A DNA stretch of 64,000 nucleotides from Caldilineaceae bacterium SB0661_bin_34 (lineage in GTDB: Bacteria; Chloroflexota; Anaerolineae; Caldilineales; Caldilineaceae), in NCBI GenBank assembly GCA_009841145.1, contig VXMJ01000026.1, forward strand, positions 1 through 64,000, in the 5' to 3' direction. The notes under the pieces were generated by a model. The model was given only the letters and a program-made list of their open reading frames with translations. It was not told the DNA's origin and made no database searches. Below are positions 47,191 to 59,227 of the stretch, piece after piece (within the stretch, counting starts at the first letter, position 1; each line of letters starts with the position of its first letter). The translations under genes were made by a program, and so were the position numbers.

Positions 47191-47295
47191 TCCGGGAGGC
47201 GATTTCACGGCCAGCACTGCCGCGCCTTGGGTAACTCGGTTTGCAGGCGACGGTGTGCTGGCCGTGACCAATGGGTAGGCCAGTTGATTTCGGCC

Positions 47296-48687
47296 ATGAC
47301 AAGGGATCCGCCGTATCGTCTGATCAATCCCCTCCAGGCGATCAGGTACCTGATGCGGGGAAATCTGCACAACCTCTTTCAGCAGGAGTGGCACCGCCAG
47401 GGAGAAATTGCACGGTTCCGGATCGGGTCCGTTCGGATCACGGTCATCAGCGACTTGGCAGACGTCAAGCATGTCATGCAGGACCGGGCGAAGGCCTACG
47501 GCAAGCGATTGGACACAACGGACAGGCTTTTGGGAGAGGGCATTTCCAACTCCGAGGGTCCGGCCTGGCGTCACCATCGGCGTGAAATGAAGCAGGCGTT
47601 CAACCATCGGCAGCTGGCCCGATACTTCCCTTTGGTCCAGGCCCGGACCCAGGAAGCCGTGCGCAGGTTGGTGGAGGGTTCGTCGTCCACAGTCGAGGAA
47701 GCGGCCGTTGCCCTTACCCGCTGGGTGATTTATACCGCACTGTTCGGAGCGGAACGGCCGGAGGGGTGGAGGAAGTTCCTGGATTCCTTCGACAATCTTG
47801 TGTCCCAGCAGGTTTGGCAGTCTGCCCTGCCGTCATTCCTGACCTCCCGGGCGTGGCCGTGGACCCGCGCCTATCACTCGAACCTGGCCGCCATTGACCG
47901 GTTCGTGTACGACCGGATCGATGCCGGGACCATGGATGACCAGACGGTACTTGGCTACTGTCTGGCACACGACGAAGAATCCGGTGAGGCGAAGTTCACC
48001 AGACAGGAGGTGCGCGACGATCTGGTAACGCTGCTCTTGGCCGGCTACGAAACCACGTCGGCCACTATCTGCTGGATTCTGTTGCTGGTTGGACAACATC
48101 CGGACGTGGCGCGGCGGTTGCAGGAAGCCAGTTTGGCCTTTCCTGCGGATGGAAGTTGGACCCTTCAGGATCTGGCCAAGTTTCGCTACGGCCGTGCCGT
48201 CGTTGATGAGGCCCTGAGGCTGTTCCCTGCCGGCTGGGCCATTCGGCGCGTGGCCCTGGAGCCGGATACATTGCCATCCGGCCTGGTGGTGCGCGAAGGG
48301 GATCTGCTCAATATCTCGCCATTTCTGATTCACAGGGACCCTCAACATTGGCCCAATCCGGATGTGTTCGATCCAGAGCGCTTCCTGGACCCGGCTGCAG
48401 CCAAGGACGCGGGGTACGCCTTTATTCCGTTTGGCGGTGGTCCTCGTCGTTGCCCTGGCATGAACCTTGCCTACATGGAGGTGTTGACGGTGCTGCTGGC
48501 CTGCCTGCAGGCGGGTACATGGACCGTATCCGCCCGCGAACCCGTTGCCATCTTTTCGCGTGGAACCATGCGGCCTGCCCGGCCAGTTTCACTGATCTGG
48601 CAACCGCACGGCCCAAATAGGATGTCCGGTCGGCCGACACACCCGGGCGACTGCCCCATGTCGACTGTGAACCCTGGTTCCCCATGA
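47296..48687 (+). CDS. Cytochrome P450
   Basis: Heme-thiolate monooxygenase, 463 residues including a short C-terminal tail. The I-helix oxygen-activation motif is AGYETT (249-254), the ExxR pair is E305-R308 (EALR), the meander region contains 'NPDVFDPERFLDP', and the heme loop FGGGPRRCPG has the thiolate cysteine C386. No membrane anchor, so it is soluble. Its redox partner could be any ferredoxin; the Rieske protein is far away. The ATG at 47296 follows normal P450 length; the frame is open 23 codons upstream. Substrate unknown. Confidence 0.93.
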   Translation: MTRDPPYRLINPLQAIRYLMRGNLHNLFQQEWHRQGEIARFRIGSVRITVISDLADVKHVMQDRAKAYGKRLDTTDRLLGEGISNSEGPAWRHHRREMKQAFNHRQLARYFPLVQARTQEAVRRLVEGSSSTVEEAAVALTRWVIYTALFGAERPEGWRKFLDSFDNLVSQQVWQSALPSFLTSRAWPWTRAYHSNLAAIDRFVYDRIDAGTMDDQTVLGYCLAHDEESGEAKFTRQEVRDDLVTLLLAGYETTSATICWILLLVGQHPDVARRLQEASLAFPADGSWTLQDLAKFRYGRAVVDEALRLFPAGWAIRRVALEPDTLPSGLVVREGDLLNISPFLIHRDPQHWPNPDVFDPERFLDPAAAKDAGYAFIPFGGGPRRCPGMNLAYMEVLTVLLACLQAGTWTVSAREPVAIFSRGTMRPARPVSLIWQPHGPNRMSGRPTHPGDCPMSTVNPGSP

Positions 48688-48714
48688 CCGCCCAGGCAGG
48701 AGAATCCGGAATCA

Positions 48715-49479
48715 ATGACCATTGCGAACGACACCACAGTGCTGGTGACCGGGGCGGGCCGCGGGATCGGCGAAGCGGTGGCTACGGCCTTCGCCACCAA
48801 GTCCGGAAGGGTCATCGTGACCGACATCGATCCCGCAGTGGCGGCAGTGGCGGAGGCCATCGGCGCTTCGTTTATCGAGGCCGACTTATCCGACATGGAC
48901 GCGGTGCGCAACCTGAGCTCCCGGGTGATTGCGGATTTCGGCCCCATTGACATCCTGATCAACAACGCCGGTCTGCAACACGTGAGTGCCATTGATGAGT
49001 TTCCCGACGACATGTGGTCCAGGATCATCCAAGTCATGCTAACGGCCCCCTTTCAGTTGATGAAGGCGGTTCTGCCAGGCATGAAGCAACAGGGATGGGG
49101 CCGCGTTATCAACATTGCCTCCGTCCACGGACTGATCGCCAGTCCGTTCAAGGGTGCGTACATCGCGGCCAAGCACGGTCTGGTGGGATTGACCAAGACG
49201 GCGGCGCTGGAAGTGGCTGCCTACGGTGTTACGGTCAATGCCATTTGTCCCGGATACGTCAACACGGCCCTGGTCCGAAACCAAATCGCGGATCTGGCGC
49301 GTATCCGCGGTATTCCGGAGTCGGAGGTGGTCGAACGGGTCATACTGGAACCGGTTGCGGTCAAACGCATGGTGGAACCGAAGGAAGTGGCCCGGATGGC
49401 ACTGTTCCTGGTGGGTCCGGATGCGCGATCCATCACAGGATCCATGCAGGTCATGGATGGCGGCTGGACCGCCAGGTGA
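48715..49479 (+). CDS. hbdH: 3-hydroxybutyrate dehydrogenase
   Basis: SDR enzyme that interconverts (R)-3-hydroxybutyrate and acetoacetate, 254 residues. Beyond the SDR core (TGAGRGIG, Y149, K153) it has the blocks characteristic of this enzyme: 'NNAGLQHVSAIDEFP', 'ASVHGLIASPFKGAYIAAKH' and 'ICPGYVNTALVRNQI'. AGGAG precedes the ATG. It lies 27 bases after the P450 gene, so it might be co-transcribed, and would link storage or ketone metabolism. A phaC or acetoacetyl-CoA transferase is not visible in the window. Confidence 0.93.
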   Translation: MTIANDTTVLVTGAGRGIGEAVATAFATKSGRVIVTDIDPAVAAVAEAIGASFIEADLSDMDAVRNLSSRVIADFGPIDILINNAGLQHVSAIDEFPDDMWSRIIQVMLTAPFQLMKAVLPGMKQQGWGRVINIASVHGLIASPFKGAYIAAKHGLVGLTKTAALEVAAYGVTVNAICPGYVNTALVRNQIADLARIRGIPESEVVERVILEPVAVKRMVEPKEVARMALFLVGPDARSITGSMQVMDGGWTAR

Positions 49480-49532
49480 CGTTCGGGGCGGAAGGGCTGC
49501 AGCCGGAAGCTGTCGTGGTTTGATTAGAATCG

Positions 49533-49557
49533 CGGTGCCAAGCGGAACACGGCACCG
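49533..49557 (+). terminator. Stem-loop after the 3-hydroxybutyrate dehydrogenase gene
   Basis: CGGTGCC (49533-49539) and GGCACCG (49551-49557) form a perfect 7-bp stem with an 11-base loop, 53 bases after the dehydrogenase stop codon and 71 before the next start. It could be a terminator or a leader element of the following gene. No U-tract follows. Confidence 0.42.
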
Positions 49558-49627
49558 TAGCGTACCAACCGTGCCGAAGATCCGGCCGCACCCACTTGCA
49601 CATGACGTCCACGCTGGCACTTTCCAC

Positions 49628-50893
49628 ATGAACCAATCGCGCATTGCCTCCGTTGAGACTCACCTGTTGTGGGTACCCACTCGGCAAGCCATCCGCCGGG
49701 AGATGGAGAGGGCGTTGATCCACGCCTGGTCCGAAGTCGAAGTGACGATCGTTGAACTGGAGTCGGGGGTCATCGGCACGGGTGAGACAATCCAGAACTA
49801 CACGTGGGGTCGTTCCGTTGACCATCAGGCCGTGGTCGGCGGCAACCCGTTTGAACTCATGTGGCAGGACCGGCTGGGTGCCGGACTGCAGATGGCATTG
49901 TTGGATGCCGCGGGCAAGGAGGCGGGGGTGCCTGTCTCCCGTTTGCTGGGCGAGCCCTGCAGAACCCATTGTCCCGTATCCCACTGGGGTCACGACATGC
50001 CGCCTGAGTTGTATCGGCAGGAGGCGTTGTGGGCGATCGAACACGGCTACACCAGCATGAAGATCAAGACGCGGCCTTGGTTCGACGTGGTCGAAACCCT
50101 CGACCTGATCAGCGACGCCACGCCGGACACGTTTGAAATCGATACGGACTGGAACGATTTCCTGTTGTCCGCGCCCCGAGCCATCCCGGTGCTGAGGCAT
50201 TTGGAGGACCGGTTTTCGAAAATGGCGCTCGTGGAAGGGCCTATCCCAGCTGCTGACTCCAGCGGCAACAAGGCCATTCGCTGCGCCATTGCCTGTCCGG
50301 TAGCCCATCACTACTCGGATGAACTTGCACTCCGTATTGACCACGGCGGATGTGACGGATACGTCATGGCGGGTGGGGTTTCCGCTGTCATGCGCGGCGG
50401 ACACGCGGCTGCGGCATATGGACAGCCCTTCTTTCTGCAAATGGTGGGCACCGGTCTAACTGCTGCCTTGGCGGCCCACATCGGCTCGGTGCTTTCCCAC
50501 GCCCAGTGGCCCGCTATCACATGCACCGGCATATACGAACACGATCTCTTGACGGATTCGCTTGAAGTGCGACATGGACTCGTGACCGTGCCGGACGGAC
50601 CGGGACTTGGTGTGGATCTTGACCGCGAAGCGCTTTCCAGATTCAAGGCACGCGGCGACGAAATTGATCTTCCGCCGCGCATTGTTACCTATCGTCAACC
50701 GGATGGCCTCACGGTGCATTTCGCGAACAATTCCCACAACTCGTCGGCCGTTTGGGCGTTCTTCCGCAGGGGAACTCTGCCCGTTCTCATGCCGGGGGTG
50801 ACCACCACCATGGTCGATGTTGGGGACGACCCAGAGTTGGTCGAACTCCACCGACGGGTTTCCGCCGCCGGCTACCTCATCGAATCCGGCTGA
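49628..50893 (+). CDS. Divergent mandelate racemase/enolase-superfamily protein
   Basis: Second enolase-superfamily member, 421 residues from the ATG at 49628, with upstream open frame lacking similarity. The barrel has the KxK pair K145/K147 (MKIKTR), D172 with D174 (EIDTDW) and E203 (LVEGPIP). At the strand where family members have the third metal ligand (usually GGE), this protein reads AHHYSDE (226-232), so Y229 occupies that position unless D231 or E232 replaces it. A 50-residue C-terminal extension after the usual end is present. The reaction may differ from typical acid-sugar dehydratases. It is followed 34 bases later by an SDR. Confidence 0.8.
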   Translation: MNQSRIASVETHLLWVPTRQAIRREMERALIHAWSEVEVTIVELESGVIGTGETIQNYTWGRSVDHQAVVGGNPFELMWQDRLGAGLQMALLDAAGKEAGVPVSRLLGEPCRTHCPVSHWGHDMPPELYRQEALWAIEHGYTSMKIKTRPWFDVVETLDLISDATPDTFEIDTDWNDFLLSAPRAIPVLRHLEDRFSKMALVEGPIPAADSSGNKAIRCAIACPVAHHYSDELALRIDHGGCDGYVMAGGVSAVMRGGHAAAAYGQPFFLQMVGTGLTAALAAHIGSVLSHAQWPAITCTGIYEHDLLTDSLEVRHGLVTVPDGPGLGVDLDREALSRFKARGDEIDLPPRIVTYRQPDGLTVHFANNSHNSSAVWAFFRRGTLPVLMPGVTTTMVDVGDDPELVELHRRVSAAGYLIESG

Positions 50894-50927
50894 AGTCAGT
50901 ACCAGGACACTGCGGGAAAGCGCAAAC

Positions 50928-51707
50928 ATGTCGCAGATAGCCAACCGCCATGCCGTGGTGTTCGGGGCGGGGCGGGGTATTGGTGCAGCCATTGCCAGAG
51001 CCCTGTACGACGCCGGGGCGGAGTTGACCCTGGTGGACCGGGATCAGCAGGTCGGAACCGTGGCTGCTGAACTGAACTGCCACAGCCTGAGGGCCGATGT
51101 CACGGACTGGGATGCGGTGCAAGCCGTGGCTGCGAAGTGCGAGGGGCAGGCACCTGTCCACCATGTCCTCTATGCCGTGGGGCTGGGTTCCGGCAAGTCA
51201 GGGTTTCCTTTCTGGCGGATGGCCCCGTCGGACTGGAAAGGGATATTCGAGGTCAATACCCTGGGTGCTGTGCATGTGGCCCACGCCTTCGTTGAACCCA
51301 TGGTCCAACGCGGCGACGGGAGCTTCGTGCTGCTGGCCTCGGTGTCGGGGCAGTTTGGCGCCCGCAACGATCCTCCCTACAGTGCCGCCAAGGCCGCGCT
51401 AATCAATTTCGGGCAGGTCATGGCGATGGACATGGCGGAATTCGGGGTTCGCTGCAACCTGATCGCTCCCGGAATTGTCGACACCCCCATGCAGGAACGG
51501 GTCTACCGGGCCAACGTGGCCCGTTTCGTTGAGGCGCAGCGTCCAGACTATGCCACTTGGATGCAGGAGAAACTGGATGCCAATGTGCCGCTACGTAGAC
51601 CGCAAACGGTGGAAGACATTGCAGAGGCTGCCCTGTACCTGTGCCGGGCCGTCAACGTGACGGGCCAGGTGCTGAACGTGGACGGCGGCTGGGTGCAAAA
51701 GGGCTGA
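50928..51707 (+). CDS. Short-chain dehydrogenase/reductase
   Basis: NAD(P)-dependent SDR, 259 residues. The Rossmann motif is GAGRGIG at about 13-19, the catalytic Tyr-Lys pair is Y151 and K155 (YSAAK), and the serine is in 'LLASVSGQFG'. The NNAG position is replaced by YAVG, a known variation. The frame is open for 37 codons further upstream, where it overlaps the preceding gene's end; the ATG at 50928 restores the normal start. Together with the upstream enolase-superfamily protein it likely forms a two-gene metabolic unit acting on one hydroxy acid or sugar acid. Confidence 0.88.
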   Translation: MSQIANRHAVVFGAGRGIGAAIARALYDAGAELTLVDRDQQVGTVAAELNCHSLRADVTDWDAVQAVAAKCEGQAPVHHVLYAVGLGSGKSGFPFWRMAPSDWKGIFEVNTLGAVHVAHAFVEPMVQRGDGSFVLLASVSGQFGARNDPPYSAAKAALINFGQVMAMDMAEFGVRCNLIAPGIVDTPMQERVYRANVARFVEAQRPDYATWMQEKLDANVPLRRPQTVEDIAEAALYLCRAVNVTGQVLNVDGGWVQKG

Positions 51708-52497: not shown

Positions 52498-52543
52498 TAC
52501 CAACAAGTAGCTTGTTCGTCCAGATACATCCTTGGGATCTCCA

Positions 52544-53389
52544 ATGACAGTTGGTACAAAGCCCAAGCAATCCCTTGTCGGCATCGAGTTGGTCCGGCTC
52601 CTCGCCTATGAGGGAGACCGTATCTTTACAACTGACAGGGCTAGGCAGCTGGCACCCCGCGTCGGCCTGAAGGACGCCTACCTTGTCGAAGCCCTGCACC
52701 ACCTCCGCAGGAACAACTGGATCGTGCTGCTTCGCCGAGGACTCTACGCGCTCTCTTCCATGGTGCCAGGGGTTGCAACCGTCCATGAATTCGAAGTCGC
52801 CGCGGCCCTTGTCTCTCCAGCCATGATCTCCCATTGGTCGGCCATGCACTATCACGGGCTGACAGAGCAGATACCGAGGGACGTGTTCGTTCTTACCACA
52901 ACGGACGCCTGGATTCCCCGTCTGAGGAAGGACAGGGCGAAGAGGCGGAGGCCCGGAAGCGGCTTCCTGGTGGGAGATACGTTGTACCGGTTCACCCAAG
53001 TCAAGCCCGACCGCTTCTTCGGCGGCGGGCAGCGGTGGATCGGTGAGGTTCGCGTACCCATAACGGATCTGGAACGTACCTTGCTGGATGGGCTCTCCAT
53101 GCCCCGGTACTGTGGGGGCTTTACCGAGGTGCTCCACGCCGTGCAAGTCGCCATGGACCGGTTGAATATTGAACTCATTTCGGAATATGCCGTCAGACTG
53201 GGAGTGACGACTGCCAAGCGTTTGGGATGGGTGCTGGAATCTCAGGGCGTTCCCGGATCCGAACTTGCGGTGTTGTCGGAGCTGCCCGTCAAGGGTTACT
53301 GCAAACTCGATCCCACAGGACCTCGGAAGGGATCGTGCAACAGCCGCTGGATGGTCCAGGAGAACCTACCGGGGATGGTAGGAGTGTGA
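52544..53389 (+). CDS. abiEi: Type IV toxin-antitoxin system antitoxin, AbiEi family
   Basis: Antitoxin and autorepressor of the AbiE system, 281 residues from the ATG at 52544. The N-terminal winged-helix (about 15-75; 'TDRARQLAPRVGL', 'LHHLRRNNWIVLLRRGLYAL') should bind operator DNA, and the C-terminal domain shows the AbiEi block 'SHWSAMHYHGLTEQIP' and 'TDLERTLLDGLSMPRYCGG'. The stop overlaps the AbiEii start by four bases (GTGA), which enforces coupled translation. The antitoxin does not bind the toxin directly in characterised systems but counteracts it. Neighbouring IS remnants suggest acquisition by transfer. Confidence 0.88.
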   Translation: MTVGTKPKQSLVGIELVRLLAYEGDRIFTTDRARQLAPRVGLKDAYLVEALHHLRRNNWIVLLRRGLYALSSMVPGVATVHEFEVAAALVSPAMISHWSAMHYHGLTEQIPRDVFVLTTTDAWIPRLRKDRAKRRRPGSGFLVGDTLYRFTQVKPDRFFGGGQRWIGEVRVPITDLERTLLDGLSMPRYCGGFTEVLHAVQVAMDRLNIELISEYAVRLGVTTAKRLGWVLESQGVPGSELAVLSELPVKGYCKLDPTGPRKGSCNSRWMVQENLPGMVGV

Positions 53390-54264
53390 GACCCCTTCGC
53401 ACACGACTACAGGAAGCGCGCCGGCGTCTGGGCCTTCCTTGGGAGGCACTCGAAAGGGATTACTTGCAGTCTTGGGTGTTGGTCGGTATCACCAAGGTGC
53501 CTGCGCTCCCCGATACGTTGGTGTTCAAAGGCGGAACGGCTTTGCGGAAGTGCTACTTCGGCGACTACCGCTTCTCCGAAGACTTGGATTTCTCTGCACT
53601 GGAGGAGATTCCTAAAGGCGATGAGATGGAGAAGCTCATCGGGGAATCGTGCGCGATTGCGGTTCGCCTACTGGATGAATACGCGCCGGTGGAGATCATC
53701 TGTGAGCGTTACACGGAGAGGGAGCCACATCCGGGAGGTCAGGAGGCCTTCACCGTGCGAGCGCGGTTTCCCTGGCACAGCCACACCCAGACCCGCGTCA
53801 TGATCGAGGTCACTGTGGACGAGAGGATCCTGCGGCCATCAGAGAAAAGACAGGTTATCCACGAGTACGGGGAACCTTTGAACATCAAGGTCCCAGTGTA
53901 TTCTCTTGAGGAGATCGTCGCCGAGAAGCTACGGGCGCTCCTCCAGCAGGCAGCTTTGTTCAAGGCGCGCGGTTGGAGCCGTTCACGCGCCCGCGACTAC
54001 TATGACCTCTGGCGTATGTTTGGTTCCTATGGGGACCGGATGGAATTGGCAGACTTCGACATGTTGCTCCGAGAGAAGTGCGCGGTCCGGGCCGTTTCGT
54101 TTACAGGCCCGAATGATTTCTTCGATGAGCGTATGCTTGTGAATGTCGAAGAGACTTGGGAGCAGTGGCTTGGTCCGTTGGTGTCGGATTTGCCAACTTT
54201 CGGGACCGTGGTTGGTGCGTTGCGTCCGCGGGTGGCGAAGCTGGTTCCTGCAGACAGCACATAG
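53386..54264 (+). CDS. abiEii: Type IV toxin, AbiEii nucleotidyltransferase
   Basis: Nucleotidyltransferase toxin of phage-abortive infection, 292 residues. The polymerase-beta-type motif appears as G49-G50-T51 (FKGGTALRK) followed by the catalytic pair D66/D68 in SEDLDFS; later 'YSLEEIVAEKLRALLQQA' and 'RARDYYDLWRMFG' match the AbiEii family. The start is a GTG at 53386, overlapping the antitoxin stop. It should transfer nucleotides to a tRNA or other target when released. The reading frame continues well upstream inside the antitoxin gene, but only the GTG gives a family-like N-terminus. Confidence 0.9.
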   Translation: MRPLRTRLQEARRRLGLPWEALERDYLQSWVLVGITKVPALPDTLVFKGGTALRKCYFGDYRFSEDLDFSALEEIPKGDEMEKLIGESCAIAVRLLDEYAPVEIICERYTEREPHPGGQEAFTVRARFPWHSHTQTRVMIEVTVDERILRPSEKRQVIHEYGEPLNIKVPVYSLEEIVAEKLRALLQQAALFKARGWSRSRARDYYDLWRMFGSYGDRMELADFDMLLREKCAVRAVSFTGPNDFFDERMLVNVEETWEQWLGPLVSDLPTFGTVVGALRPRVAKLVPADST

Positions 54265-54950: not shown

Positions 54951-55670
54951 TCAGCCGTCGATAACGTCGTGGACTCTCACAATCCAACCGCTGGTCGCGT
55001 CGCAGTACAGAAAGTCCGCGCCTTGCCGCGTCATTCCGTGCGGTTGCGGCATGTCGTCGGGAATGTTGATGGTCCGACCGGGCTCGCCGGTATCCGGATC
55101 CGTCTCGACGATGGTCCGTTCGTTGGTGTAGACGATCCACAACGCCTCTTCGGTGCTGACCAAGCCGTGGGATCGATCGTGCTGGAGCGGAATGGTTGAG
55201 TTAACGGACCAGTCCGCTATGCGAACCCGGCTCAGAGTCTGCCGGGACAAGGTGCTCAGCCAGATGTAGTCCGGGTCCCGGCAGTCAACCTCGATGCCGT
55301 GCGTGCCGCCGCCGCCGGGAAGGAGACGCCGTTCCTTTAGTTCGCCGGTGTCGGTATCCATCCTTAAGACCTCGCCGGCTCCTTTCCGCGCATCCTGCTC
55401 ACGGGATGGCCGCCATAGGTCCGAACTCCCGTTGGCTGCCAGCCAGAGATCGCCGTCGTGCCAGCTCAGGCCGCTGGTGTTCGACGAATCGCTGGGGTAA
55501 TCCTTCAGGAAATGGGTTACCTGGTAGTCGTTGGGCGTGTCCAGGCTGACCAGGGCCACCCGATCCGTGATCTGGTCCACAACCCAAACGCCGTCCGGAC
55601 AGGCTGCAATGCCGTTGGGGACAGCGTAGGGGGACCTGAAAATCCGTTCAAAACGACCGTTGCCGTCCAT
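54951..55670 (-). CDS. Beta-propeller protein (SMP-30/NHL-like)
   Basis: A 239-residue cytoplasmic protein with repeated propeller strands such as 'PYAVPNGIAACPDGVWVVDQ', 'GLSWHDGDLWLAANG', 'GTHGIEVDCRDPDYIWLST' and 'PHGMTRQGADFLYCDA'. GGAGG precedes the ATG at 55670. The repeat pattern suggests a small five- or six-blade propeller, perhaps a lactonase or ligand-binding protein; no clear Ca-binding Glu/Asn/Asp trio of SMP-30 lactonases can be mapped. It follows the Ldh2-type dehydrogenase by 20 bases, so the two are co-transcribed and may act in sequence. Confidence 0.72.
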   Translation of the reverse strand: MDGNGRFERIFRSPYAVPNGIAACPDGVWVVDQITDRVALVSLDTPNDYQVTHFLKDYPSDSSNTSGLSWHDGDLWLAANGSSDLWRPSREQDARKGAGEVLRMDTDTGELKERRLLPGGGGTHGIEVDCRDPDYIWLSTLSRQTLSRVRIADWSVNSTIPLQHDRSHGLVSTEEALWIVYTNERTIVETDPDTGEPGRTINIPDDMPQPHGMTRQGADFLYCDATSGWIVRVHDVIDG

Positions 55671-55690: not shown

Positions 55691-56731
55691 TTAGGCAGGA
55701 ACCGGTATTTCGTATTTCGACGCTGACTCCACGATGCGATTCCAGGTTGCGTCCTCAATTGGGATTCCACTGGCAGTCCGTTCCCTGATGCGCTGTTGTT
55801 CGATCTCGCCGGGCAGGTAGATTTGATCCGTTCCCGGCATCACGCGGGAGGATTTGATCCAGTCGATCAGATGACGCACCTCGGTGCGGTATTCGTCCAT
55901 GTCAACGAAGGCTTCGATTTGCAAGGCCATGCACAAGAACCCGCTGGCACCCCGGGTTGGGTTTTCTTGACTGCATCCTGCCCTGGACAATGCCCCTGCC
56001 ATGACATCGATCATCATGGACAGGCCGTACCCCTTGTGTCCTAGTGCACCGCCCAGCGGAAGCATGGCAGCATGGGGCGTGCGCAACAGCGCAGGATCGG
56101 TGACGGTGTTGCCGTCGCCATCCACGAGCCATCCCTCCGGCGCCTCCTGGTTGCGCGCCGTCAGAACTTCCAGCTTGCCGCCAGCCACCATGCTGGTGGT
56201 GATGTCCAGCATCATGGGATCGTCCGTATCGGTGGGGACGCTGATGGCTAGGGGATTTGGTGGCAACCGGCGGTCTGTACCGCCAAAGGGGGCTGTGAAT
56301 CGGGCTCCGCCATTGAGCATGATGATGCCAACGCAGTTCTTGGCGGAGGCCAATGGAGGAAAGGCCCCCAACCGTCCAATGTGGCTGGCCCTGCGTACGG
56401 TCACAACCCCGACCCCGACAGCTTCGGCCTTCCGGGTTGCCATTTCCATCGCCTCGTAGGCCATGAGAATGCCGATGCTGCGGTCGGCATCCACGACCGC
56501 CGTAGCGGACGAATCCCGTTCCACGATCTGGGAGCCAAGAGCCTTGATGCTGCCCTGCTCAATCTGTTCGGCATATCCGGGGACCCGCAGCACCCCGTGC
56601 GAGTCGTGCCCCATCAAGTTCGATTCAACCAGATGGTTGGCCGTCCGTCGGGCCTGATCCTTGGGCAGCCCCGAGCCATGCAGAATTCCGGTTACGAGGT
56701 CGTTGAGGTCCGAAGGGGCAATGGCGGGCAT
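55691..56731 (-). CDS. Malate/L-lactate dehydrogenase-type (Ldh2) oxidoreductase
   Basis: NAD(P)-dependent dehydrogenase of the Ldh2 family, 346 residues, a fold distinct from classical LDH. Marker motifs are DSHGVLRVP at 43-51, 'RRASHIGRLGAFPPLA' with the catalytic histidine, and 'GGALGHKGYGLSMMIDVM'. Family members reduce or oxidise malate, lactate, sulfolactate, ureidoglycolate or 2,3-diketogulonate. Because purine degradation genes occur in this window, an allD-like ureidoglycolate dehydrogenase role is possible but unsupported by linkage. It is upstream of the beta-propeller gene in a two-gene unit. Confidence 0.88.
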   Translation of the reverse strand: MPAIAPSDLNDLVTGILHGSGLPKDQARRTANHLVESNLMGHDSHGVLRVPGYAEQIEQGSIKALGSQIVERDSSATAVVDADRSIGILMAYEAMEMATRKAEAVGVGVVTVRRASHIGRLGAFPPLASAKNCVGIIMLNGGARFTAPFGGTDRRLPPNPLAISVPTDTDDPMMLDITTSMVAGGKLEVLTARNQEAPEGWLVDGDGNTVTDPALLRTPHAAMLPLGGALGHKGYGLSMMIDVMAGALSRAGCSQENPTRGASGFLCMALQIEAFVDMDEYRTEVRHLIDWIKSSRVMPGTDQIYLPGEIEQQRIRERTASGIPIEDATWNRIVESASKYEIPVPA

Positions 56732-56877: not shown

Positions 56878-58155
56878 TCAAGCCAAATGCCCTGCTGCGG
56901 GACCAAATGGTTCGCGGCCGCCCAGGTAAAGCAGCCGGTTGTACTTGGCCAGTCGTTCCGACTGGGTGATGGAGCCGACCTTGATGTTGTCCGCCTGCCA
57001 ACCCACCGCCAGATCGGCCAGCCAATCATCCTCGGTTTCGCCGCTGCGGGCCGACACGACCACGTGCCAACCGTAGCCGCGCGCCAGTTCGAGCGCGTCC
57101 CGCGCTTCGCTGAGTGTCCCGATCTGGTTGACTTTCAACAAAAGGGCATTGGCGCAGGCAGATTCCGCCGCCCGCCTGATTCGGTTCGGGTTCGTGCACA
57201 GCAGATCGTCGCCCAGGACGATGGTGGCATCGCCGAGTTCCGCGTACAGCTCCTGCCAGCCGGTCCAGTCATCTTCGGCCAACCCATCCTCGATGCTGTG
57301 CATGGGGTAGGCTCGACACCAGGTTCGATACAGGGAGACCAACTCCCCGGCGGACAGGGTTTGGCCGTCCACGTGATAACGGCCGTCCACATGGAAATGG
57401 CTGGCGGCGGCATCGATTGCCAGTTTGTAGTCGATCCCCGGTTCCAATCCGGCGGTTCGACAACAGACGTCAGCCTGGGCCAACATTTCGTGGGTGTTCT
57501 TGAAGGGCGGGGCCAAGCCCCCTTCGTCGGCGGTTAGATTGCGCTGGCCGTAGTCGCGGGCGATCAGGTCGACGGCACAGGCATACACTTCGGCCATGGC
57601 CGCCATTTGTTCGTCAATCGGCCGCGTTGGCAATGGCAGGACAAGGACATCCTGCAGCGCGACCTGACCGCCGGCATGGACCCCGCCGCTGAACAGATTG
57701 ATGGTGGGGGAGGGCAGGTGCGCGGGCATGGGCGCAGCGTTGGTGCGGAGCGACGCCAAGTGTTGCCATAGACTTTGGCCCTTTACCTGAGCAACCGCGC
57801 GGGCAAATGCCAATGAGACGGCGAGCACTGCGTTTGCGCCCAGCCGGGACTTGTTGGGGGTGCCGTCCAGACCGATCAGGAAGTTGTCCAACTCCTGCTG
57901 GGAACGCCAGGTCAGATTGGCTGCCTCCGCCCCGATGTGCCGAATCGAATTGACCGCCTTCAGGCAGCCTTTGCCCCGGTAACGGTGTGGATCCCCGTCC
58001 CTCAGTTCATGGGCTTCGTGGATGCCGGTGGATGCGCCGGAGGGAACGGACACCGCACCGGAATGCCCGGATGACAGCAGCAGCGACGCCTTGACGGTTG
58101 GACGGCCCCTGCTGTCCAGGATTTCATGGGCGTCCAGGTCGTCTATGGTGAACAT
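56878..58155 (-). CDS. Enolase-like protein with altered active-site residues
   Basis: A full-length enolase homolog (425 residues) that may not perform the glycolytic reaction. Conserved features are SVPSGASTG in the mobile loop, H160 in GGVHAGG, catalytic E211 (DEGG), metal region 'SIEDGL' (E289), and lysines K341 and K392. Two positions differ from true enolases: the glutamate that follows the GGxHA loop is D169, and the histidine of the SHRSGE motif is A369 (SARSGE). In addition, SIEDPL reads SIEDGL. The start ATG at 58155 is 28 bases after the kinase gene's stop, so the two are co-transcribed. It may act on a different phosphorylated or unphosphorylated acid. Confidence 0.85.
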   Translation of the reverse strand: MFTIDDLDAHEILDSRGRPTVKASLLLSSGHSGAVSVPSGASTGIHEAHELRDGDPHRYRGKGCLKAVNSIRHIGAEAANLTWRSQQELDNFLIGLDGTPNKSRLGANAVLAVSLAFARAVAQVKGQSLWQHLASLRTNAAPMPAHLPSPTINLFSGGVHAGGQVALQDVLVLPLPTRPIDEQMAAMAEVYACAVDLIARDYGQRNLTADEGGLAPPFKNTHEMLAQADVCCRTAGLEPGIDYKLAIDAAASHFHVDGRYHVDGQTLSAGELVSLYRTWCRAYPMHSIEDGLAEDDWTGWQELYAELGDATIVLGDDLLCTNPNRIRRAAESACANALLLKVNQIGTLSEARDALELARGYGWHVVVSARSGETEDDWLADLAVGWQADNIKVGSITQSERLAKYNRLLYLGGREPFGPAAGHLA

Positions 58156-58183
58156 TGGAACCTTCCCTGCAGCAAGTCGACGT

Positions 58184-59227
58184 TCAGGTTTCCCCAAGCT
58201 GCCCGGTAACCTCGCGGATCAAGTCGGGGATGGTGGAGGGCGGGTTGGCCATCAGCCGCAGGGCCAGCGCACACTGGCGATCCAACTGGGCATCGTTCAA
58301 ATACTCCAGCCGGGACCGGCCCACCGCCCTGGCCAGCAGGCAACCGGCAGTGTGCCTGCATCCTGCGGCTTCGCCCCCATCCTGGGCCACGGCCGGACCG
58401 GAACGTTGCCGATAGCCACCCCAGAAGGACTCGGCTCCCTGCAGAAACTGCCTGCGCCACAGCGGCGACCACAAGGCCTTGGCCAGCGCATGGGTAAGTG
58501 CGAAACCAACGTCGAACCAGGGTGTGCCCACATGGCTGACTTCAAAGTCCAGCAGCCACAGCCGCCGGTCCTGCAACAGAACGTTCTTGGGGCTGTAGTC
58601 GCCGTGAACAAGTGTGTTGCGCGAGTTCGTTGCCGCGTTCACAAGGTCCTGCATAAAGTCGGCGGCCTGTGGAACCCGCAGGCCACTCACCAAATAGTAC
58701 GGGTCCAGCCGGAGGGAGTGAAAGTGCATCTTGGACTGAAGACGCGCCGGCAGTCGGTCGACCTGCGGTCTGGCCTTGTCGTGGATGTGGGCCAGCATGC
58801 GGCCGAACTCCTGCCACGAACCGGGATCAACGAATCCCTGTAGAAGACGCGTCTTCCAGTTCGCATGGGGTTCCGGCACTGCCGCCATCGCAATGATGTT
58901 GCGTTCACGGTCCTGCCGAACCGGCTCCGGTACCTGACCCGGCAAAAACGAGCCGTATACCCCCAGTGCTGCAAACTCGGTGAGGATGCGGTCGGTTGGA
59001 CTGAACCACTCGTCCTCCACCCGCAATCTAGCCAGGGCCTGTTTGACGATTAGGTCGCGGCCACCGATTTGCACCCGAACAGTCCGGTTGGAGACGCCAC
59101 CGGCCAGTACCGAGGTTTCGATTTTCTCGCCCGGGGCAGCCAACTCCTGCTCCTCCAACCAGCGGAGCAGGTGGTTTGGGCTCTCGATGTCCAGCGGATC
59201 CGGCCCGGTTTCGGGCGTTGCGGACAT
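58184..59227 (-). CDS. APH/methylthioribose-kinase-like phosphotransferase
   Basis: Small-molecule kinase of the aminoglycoside phosphotransferase fold, 347 residues. The catalytic (Brenner) motif is H208-G209-D210 with N215 in HGDYSPKNVLL, and the Mg-binding aspartate is D227 in LLDFE. An N-terminal 'LAGGVSNRTVRV' forms the glycine loop and 'LIVKQAL' the ATP-anchoring lysine. It is 35 bases after the DUF4340 gene and 28 bases before the enolase-like gene, so the kinase and the enolase-like enzyme may act on the same metabolite. An antibiotic-resistance role is less likely in this operon context. Confidence 0.85.
   Translation of the reverse strand: MSATPETGPDPLDIESPNHLLRWLEEQELAAPGEKIETSVLAGGVSNRTVRVQIGGRDLIVKQALARLRVEDEWFSPTDRILTEFAALGVYGSFLPGQVPEPVRQDRERNIIAMAAVPEPHANWKTRLLQGFVDPGSWQEFGRMLAHIHDKARPQVDRLPARLQSKMHFHSLRLDPYYLVSGLRVPQAADFMQDLVNAATNSRNTLVHGDYSPKNVLLQDRRLWLLDFEVSHVGTPWFDVGFALTHALAKALWSPLWRRQFLQGAESFWGGYRQRSGPAVAQDGGEAAGCRHTAGCLLARAVGRSRLEYLNDAQLDRQCALALRLMANPPSTIPDLIREVTGQLGET

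Follow-up and report, generated by a model that had tools for sequence, protein, structure and literature searches.

True enolases are generally regarded as one isofunctional group, and every one that we know of is named phosphopyruvate hydratase in databases. The enolase paralogue described here, ENO2, shares with this group (EC 4.2.1.11, TIGR01060) both domains, the Mg2+ ligands, the catalytic residues Lys345 and Glu211, the phosphate-binding Arg374 and Ser375, and Lys396, Ser39 and His159 (yeast numbering), but it has the fixed substitutions N155S, E168D, G209A and H373A, coexists with a canonical enolase and has a dedicated kinase. Methylthioribose (MTR) kinase, PsiK and other APH kinases (PF01636) share the HGDxxxxN and LDxE motifs with this kinase, which nevertheless lies far below the MTR kinase cut-off and forms a clade of its own, tied to the enolase. 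A common logic, phosphorylation of a 2-hydroxyl followed by dehydration, is found in the branched Entner-Doudoroff pathway, where class II (MOFRL) glycerate 2-kinase and enolase act together (PMC2063504); there, however, the kinase belongs to another family and the enolase is canonical, and genomes bearing ENO2 encode both of these as well. Acid-sugar dehydratases of the MR/MLE group (PF13378, PF02746) have the superfamily barrel and the general chemistry in common with ENO2, and are frequent neighbours of the pair, but they act on the unphosphorylated acid. ENO2 is not one of them, since in a Pfam scan its MR_MLE_C score was 24.3 bits against a cut-off of 29.4, and MR_MLE_N was absent. In the literature we found neither a report of the clade or of the enolase-kinase pairing, nor an activity assigned to any enzyme of the ENO2 clade.

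The window, that is, the whole stretch of 64,000 nucleotides that was analysed, comes from a Caldilineaceae genome of 4.34 Mb that is 98% complete. The features under study are collected in Table 1. The ENO2 reading frame is open from a TTG at 58197, the ATG at 58155 being the likely start. Numbered from this ATG, residues H160, D169, E211, K341, A369 and K392 are placed correctly in the preliminary description, and the kinase gene indeed lies 28 bp upstream of the enolase, its stop codon ending at 58184. The Ldh_2 gene is separated from ENO2 by about 146 bp, which makes co-transcription uncertain; this adjacency is found in this genus only, where it is kept in L105, L106 and L107. The order of the beta-propeller-like gene is conserved within the genus, and its product could be an accessory there only. 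Between the two sugar-metabolism strands of the window sits an AbiEi/AbiEii toxin-antitoxin or abortive-infection pair (52532-54264, plus strand; PADLOC 191.6 and 223.4 bits), and a cytochrome P450, two SDRs and an MR/MLE enzyme are encoded near the kinase-enolase pair on the opposite strand (47227-51707, plus strand).

Table 1. Features of the ENO2 locus in the window and of the second type of pair at other loci
Feature	Position	Strand	Basis or remark
ENO2, enolase paralogue, 425 aa	56878..58155	-	ATG 58155, stop 56880-56878
APH-type kinase, ENO2 partner, 347 aa	58184..59227	-	PF01636, intact motifs, adjacency to A373 enolases
Ribosome-binding-like GGGAAGG, 5 bases before ENO2 ATG	58161..58167	-	direct sequence reading
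Codon S156 (yeast N155S), loop L2	57688..57690	-	clade alignment
Codon D169 (yeast E168D)	57649..57651	-	clade alignment
Codon A209 (yeast G209A), 2 residues before catalytic E211	57529..57531	-	clade alignment
Codon A369 (yeast H373A), first residue of ARSGETED motif	57049..57051	-	clade alignment
Ldh_2-family 2-hydroxyacid dehydrogenase, possible accessory, downstream of ENO2	55691..56731	-	PF02615, 340 bits
Beta-propeller-like protein, possible accessory	54951..55670	-	weak Vgb_lyase match, 27 bits vs cut-off 50
MOFRL kinase/enolase-like pair	L101:9426-12255	-	kinase directly upstream
MOFRL kinase/enolase-like pair	L102:7821-10702	+	kinase directly upstream
MOFRL kinase/enolase-like pair	L104:9850-12620	-	kinase directly upstream
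MOFRL kinase/enolase-like pair	L109, L110, L103		kinase directly upstream

ENO2 carries both Pfam domains of enolases, Enolase_N and Enolase_C, and reaches 419 bits against TIGR01060 ('phosphopyruvate hydratase', cut-off 300). This cut-off is not diagnostic, because a degenerate second paralogue (L104:9850-11115, minus strand) also passes it with 311.9 bits, and both proteins would thus be annotated as glycolytic enolase. ENO2 is not the glycolytic enolase of its genome: an ordinary canonical enolase was looked for elsewhere and found on another contig (G000:C42:6177-7415), and at least some canonical enolase sequence was present in 14 of 14 family genomes with ENO2.

When 45 sequences of the ENO2 clade, all from Chloroflexota, were compared with 37 reference enolases, four columns separated the two sets. 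At yeast positions 155, 168, 209 and 373, N, E, G and H occur in 37/37 references, and S, D, A and A in 45/45 clade members; no further column reaches 93% fixation for differing residues on both sides, and all four lie in or beside the active site. At column 397 the references have T (one has A) and the ENO2 clade V or I. The clade thus lacks the active-site residues E168 and H373 of enolases, D and A standing there in every member. The preliminary description had equated D169 and A369 with these two yeast residues, and the alignment agrees; the changes do not result from chance, being fixed in all 45 relatives and absent from all 37 references. To this pair we add two fixed changes, N155S (S156) and G209A (A209). 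On the other hand, SIEDGL, presented there as a departure from SIEDPL, is ordinary enolase sequence and was discarded as a clade marker, since SIEDG is found both in the canonical enolase of this genome and in most bacterial references. Unchanged in 45/45 members are K345, E211, R374, S375, K396, S39 and H159, together with the Mg2+ ligands D246, E295 and D320.

When the signature columns were removed before tree building, the 45 sequences still formed a single branch (SH-aLRT 99). Identity between the clade and canonical enolases is 37-51%; the divergent members, about 54% identical to canonical enolases, nevertheless keep all four changes. In a survey of 46 genomes of the family, 14 carried ENO2 relatives with profile scores of 727-790 bits, the remaining enolases scoring 464 or less, and further relatives turned up beyond the family, both within the same class and in other classes of Chloroflexota. 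A search with a DNA pattern for ARSGETED, the A373 motif, gave more divergent members, which the profile did not separate from canonical enolases; two of its matches, L229 and L230, were rejected as chance, with a reading frame too short and no enolase match. This broad sampling covers Chloroflexota, many assemblies of which are fragmented. A contig search returned same-genus copies of ENO2 and relatives of at most 46% identity, those inspected being canonical, and in a plasmid search all matches were below 60% identity. Both genes are under purifying selection, with dN/dS values within the genus of 0.12-0.19 (ENO2) and 0.12-0.16 (kinase).

The kinase reaches 74.7 bits against PF01636 (cut-off 23.2), and its motifs HGDYSPKN and LDFE are intact. 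In a Pfam scan it matched only APH, TCAD9 and EcKL, and not the domains of class I or II glycerate kinases (PF02595 or PF13660/MOFRL); its score against the S-methyl-5-thioribose kinase equivalog TIGR01767 was 40.7 (cut-off 275). The nearest relatives with solved structures are an Arabidopsis protein deposited as uncharacterized (2pyw), 4-hydroxytryptamine kinase and methylthioribose kinase. A fold prediction for the kinase was set aside (pLDDT 37, from four near-identical sequences). A comparison of the window with L107 gives a synonymous divergence of 0.25 for ENO2 but 0.09 for the adjacent kinase gene, a difference which hints at recombination inside the operon.

With neighbouring genes called by a codon model, the kinase was found beside an ENO2-type enolase in 34 of the 45 loci (34-35 in all with L224, by tblastn), the two genes mostly lying less than 30 bp apart or overlapping. 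One gene intervenes in L161, and L204 holds a kinase fragment. Loci without an adjacent kinase are L091 and L185, both cut by contig ends, those of genus g6 and of two g14 genomes, and L206. The reciprocal search, in which the kinase alone was compared with 396 genomes (E<=1e-45), gave 25 matches. Twenty-two adjoin ENO2 by coordinates, that of G193 lies beside a divergent A373/D168 enolase, that of G146 beside an ENO2 start truncated at a contig end, and the kinase of G039 is itself cut by a contig end. All matches save the contig-cut one are therefore beside an ENO2-type enolase, and at this threshold the kinase subfamily occurs nowhere else in the 396 genomes. Thus, the pairing, sought in other genomes as the preliminary description had proposed, is present in many genera and holds in both directions. 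Within the family, the presence of the kinase and that of an A373 enolase are associated (8/1/7/30; Fisher p = 0.0002, a value that is descriptive because the genomes are related), and the distances of the two proteins correlate with r = 0.95, to which shared species history contributes a part. Judged from gene order and sequence, the APH-type kinase is the partner of ENO2.

What reaction could such a pair carry out? As ENO2 retains the enolase sites for Mg2+, carboxylate and phosphate as well as the acid-base pair, it should still abstract the C2 proton of a 2-phospho acid and expel a C3 group. The counterparts of E168, E211, K345, R374 and S375 contact 2-PGA in the Chloroflexus enolase (PMC4450660). 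The pocket around C3 is rebuilt by N155S, E168D, G209A and H373A, and the substrate would hence most likely be, instead of 2-phosphoglycerate, a 2-phospho acid extended at or beyond C3, with four carbons or more; the four changes lie in or close to the C3 end of the site, which most of them make smaller, and this would suit a substrate with an extra C3 substituent. We infer a phosphorylation site at the 2-hydroxyl, and we lean, with moderate confidence, towards a reaction sequence in which the kinase makes a 2-phospho-hydroxyacid, probably from a sugar acid larger than glycerate, and ENO2 eliminates the C3 hydroxyl. In this scheme, the APH-type kinase would phosphorylate a 2,3-dihydroxy (sugar) acid at its 2-hydroxyl, K341 of ENO2 (yeast K345) would take the C2 proton, and E211, acting as an acid, would expel the C3 hydroxyl to give an enol phosphate resembling PEP. 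The phosphate of the latter would then pass to ADP or to water, leaving a 2-keto-3-deoxy acid for aldol cleavage. The preliminary description had likewise proposed phosphorylation and then dehydration of a non-glycolytic metabolite. With the canonical enolase elsewhere, the reciprocal pairing and the changes at the C3-hydroxyl end, that part is the best reading of the data; its attachment to a GldA-type transporter does not extend past the four genomes of one genus.

It is conceivable, albeit unlikely, that the pair converts glycerate derived from sugar acids to PEP, the kinase acting as one more type of glycerate 2-kinase and ENO2 as a normal enolase that may be slow or regulated. TIGR01060 does class ENO2 as an enolase, D-2-hydroxyacid dehydrogenases resembling glyoxylate/hydroxypyruvate reductases stand by ENO2 in g6, L165 and L223 and suggest glycerate, which in L183 and L161 could be produced by an FAH-type hydrolase and an aldonate dehydratase. 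Some His373 mutants of the yeast enzyme retain partial activity, and E168D retains a carboxylate, so that turnover of 2-PG by ENO2 is possible. However, a class II glycerate kinase is encoded in the window genome and in every ENO2-bearing genome of the family, and characterised enzymes of this class yield 2-phosphoglycerate (PMC2063504). With the canonical enolase also encoded, the route from glycerate to PEP is already covered, which weakens this explanation, and it leaves four swapped active-site positions, fixed in every member, without a reason.

The altered residues surround the C3 leaving group, and this would also fit action on the other stereoisomer or on a C3 with a leaving group other than hydroxyl (e.g. 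L-glycerate or a 3-substituted lactate), yielding PEP itself. The Ldh_2 family, found beside ENO2 in this genus, includes sulfolactate dehydrogenase; yet that linkage is confined to one genus, the sulfolactate score of the protein is 217.6 against a cut-off of 500, and the unchanged K345 and E211 give no sign of inverted stereochemistry, so that we hold such a reaction to be quite improbable. That ENO2 has lost catalysis and serves the kinase through binding or regulation is very improbable indeed. Two first-shell residues are altered and the pairing is very tight, as might be expected of such a protein, but all Mg2+ and phosphate ligands and the catalytic Lys and Glu are invariant in 45/45 members, a conservation that would be unexpected in a dead enzyme.

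For the preferred reading, elimination of the C3 hydroxyl from a phosphorylated sugar acid, the genomic neighbours offer hints to the substrate. Sugar-acid genes recur beside the pair across separate lineages: MR/MLE enzymes in L162, L166, L169-L175, L181 and L183, a galactonate dehydratase in divergent orientation in L182, D-xylonate dehydratase with the FAH-type hydrolase in L161, an HpaI/GarL-type aldolase in L165, and the D-2-hydroxyacid dehydrogenases mentioned above, whose gene in L223 has a 4-bp overlap with that of the enolase. As neighbours differ between lineages, no single substrate is implied, and around some pairs (e.g. L167, L168 and L184) they are uninformative. A four-carbon-acid-sugar kinase of the DUF1537 family occurs in L094 and L099, and L161 has a weak match to D-erythronate dehydrogenase (68 vs 325 bits); a tetronate substrate is only a lead. 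The idea that the DUF1537 kinase replaces the APH kinase is weakened by L094, which has both. Outside the four genomes of this genus the pair has other neighbours than the Gld-type ABC genes, and the transporter was rejected as a component of the module. In L166 and L169-L175 the gene immediately upstream of the kinase-ENO2 pair is an MR/MLE gene that NCBIfam names cis-3-hydroxy-L-proline dehydratase (632.8 vs 500, L166 copy scanned), a name at odds with a plain sugar-acid interpretation.

A comparable pairing occurs in ten Caldilineaceae genomes, six of which were read in detail, where a far more altered enolase-like protein with E168S, E211W/Y, H159R and K396R is encoded next to a divergent DUF4147/MOFRL kinase (Table 1). 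This pair is absent from the window genome. In the family, the seven ENO2 genomes without the APH kinase all have the MOFRL pair, and the seven with the APH kinase have none; the genera compared (g6 and g14 against g1, g13 and g15) are few, and this exclusivity may be a coincidence of descent. The second pair suggests that a kinase joined to an off-type enolase arose more than once. We would tentatively go further, to an idea that is possible but falls short of probable: Chloroflexota may use a so far unrecognised 'phosphorylative dehydration' of sugar acids, in which a 2-hydroxyl kinase and a dedicated enolase variant lead to a 2-keto-3-deoxy acid in the form of its enol phosphate, such pairs having arisen at least twice, once with the APH kinase and once with the divergent MOFRL kinase and the much more altered enolase.

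If the proposed function is true, the ENO2 clade would be a phylum-wide enolase with a changed job, mis-annotated in many genomes, and the pair would provide an additional ATP-driven route for the breakdown of sugar acids. The four positions would then constitute a compact switch between the glycolytic and the new specificity, one that is directly testable.
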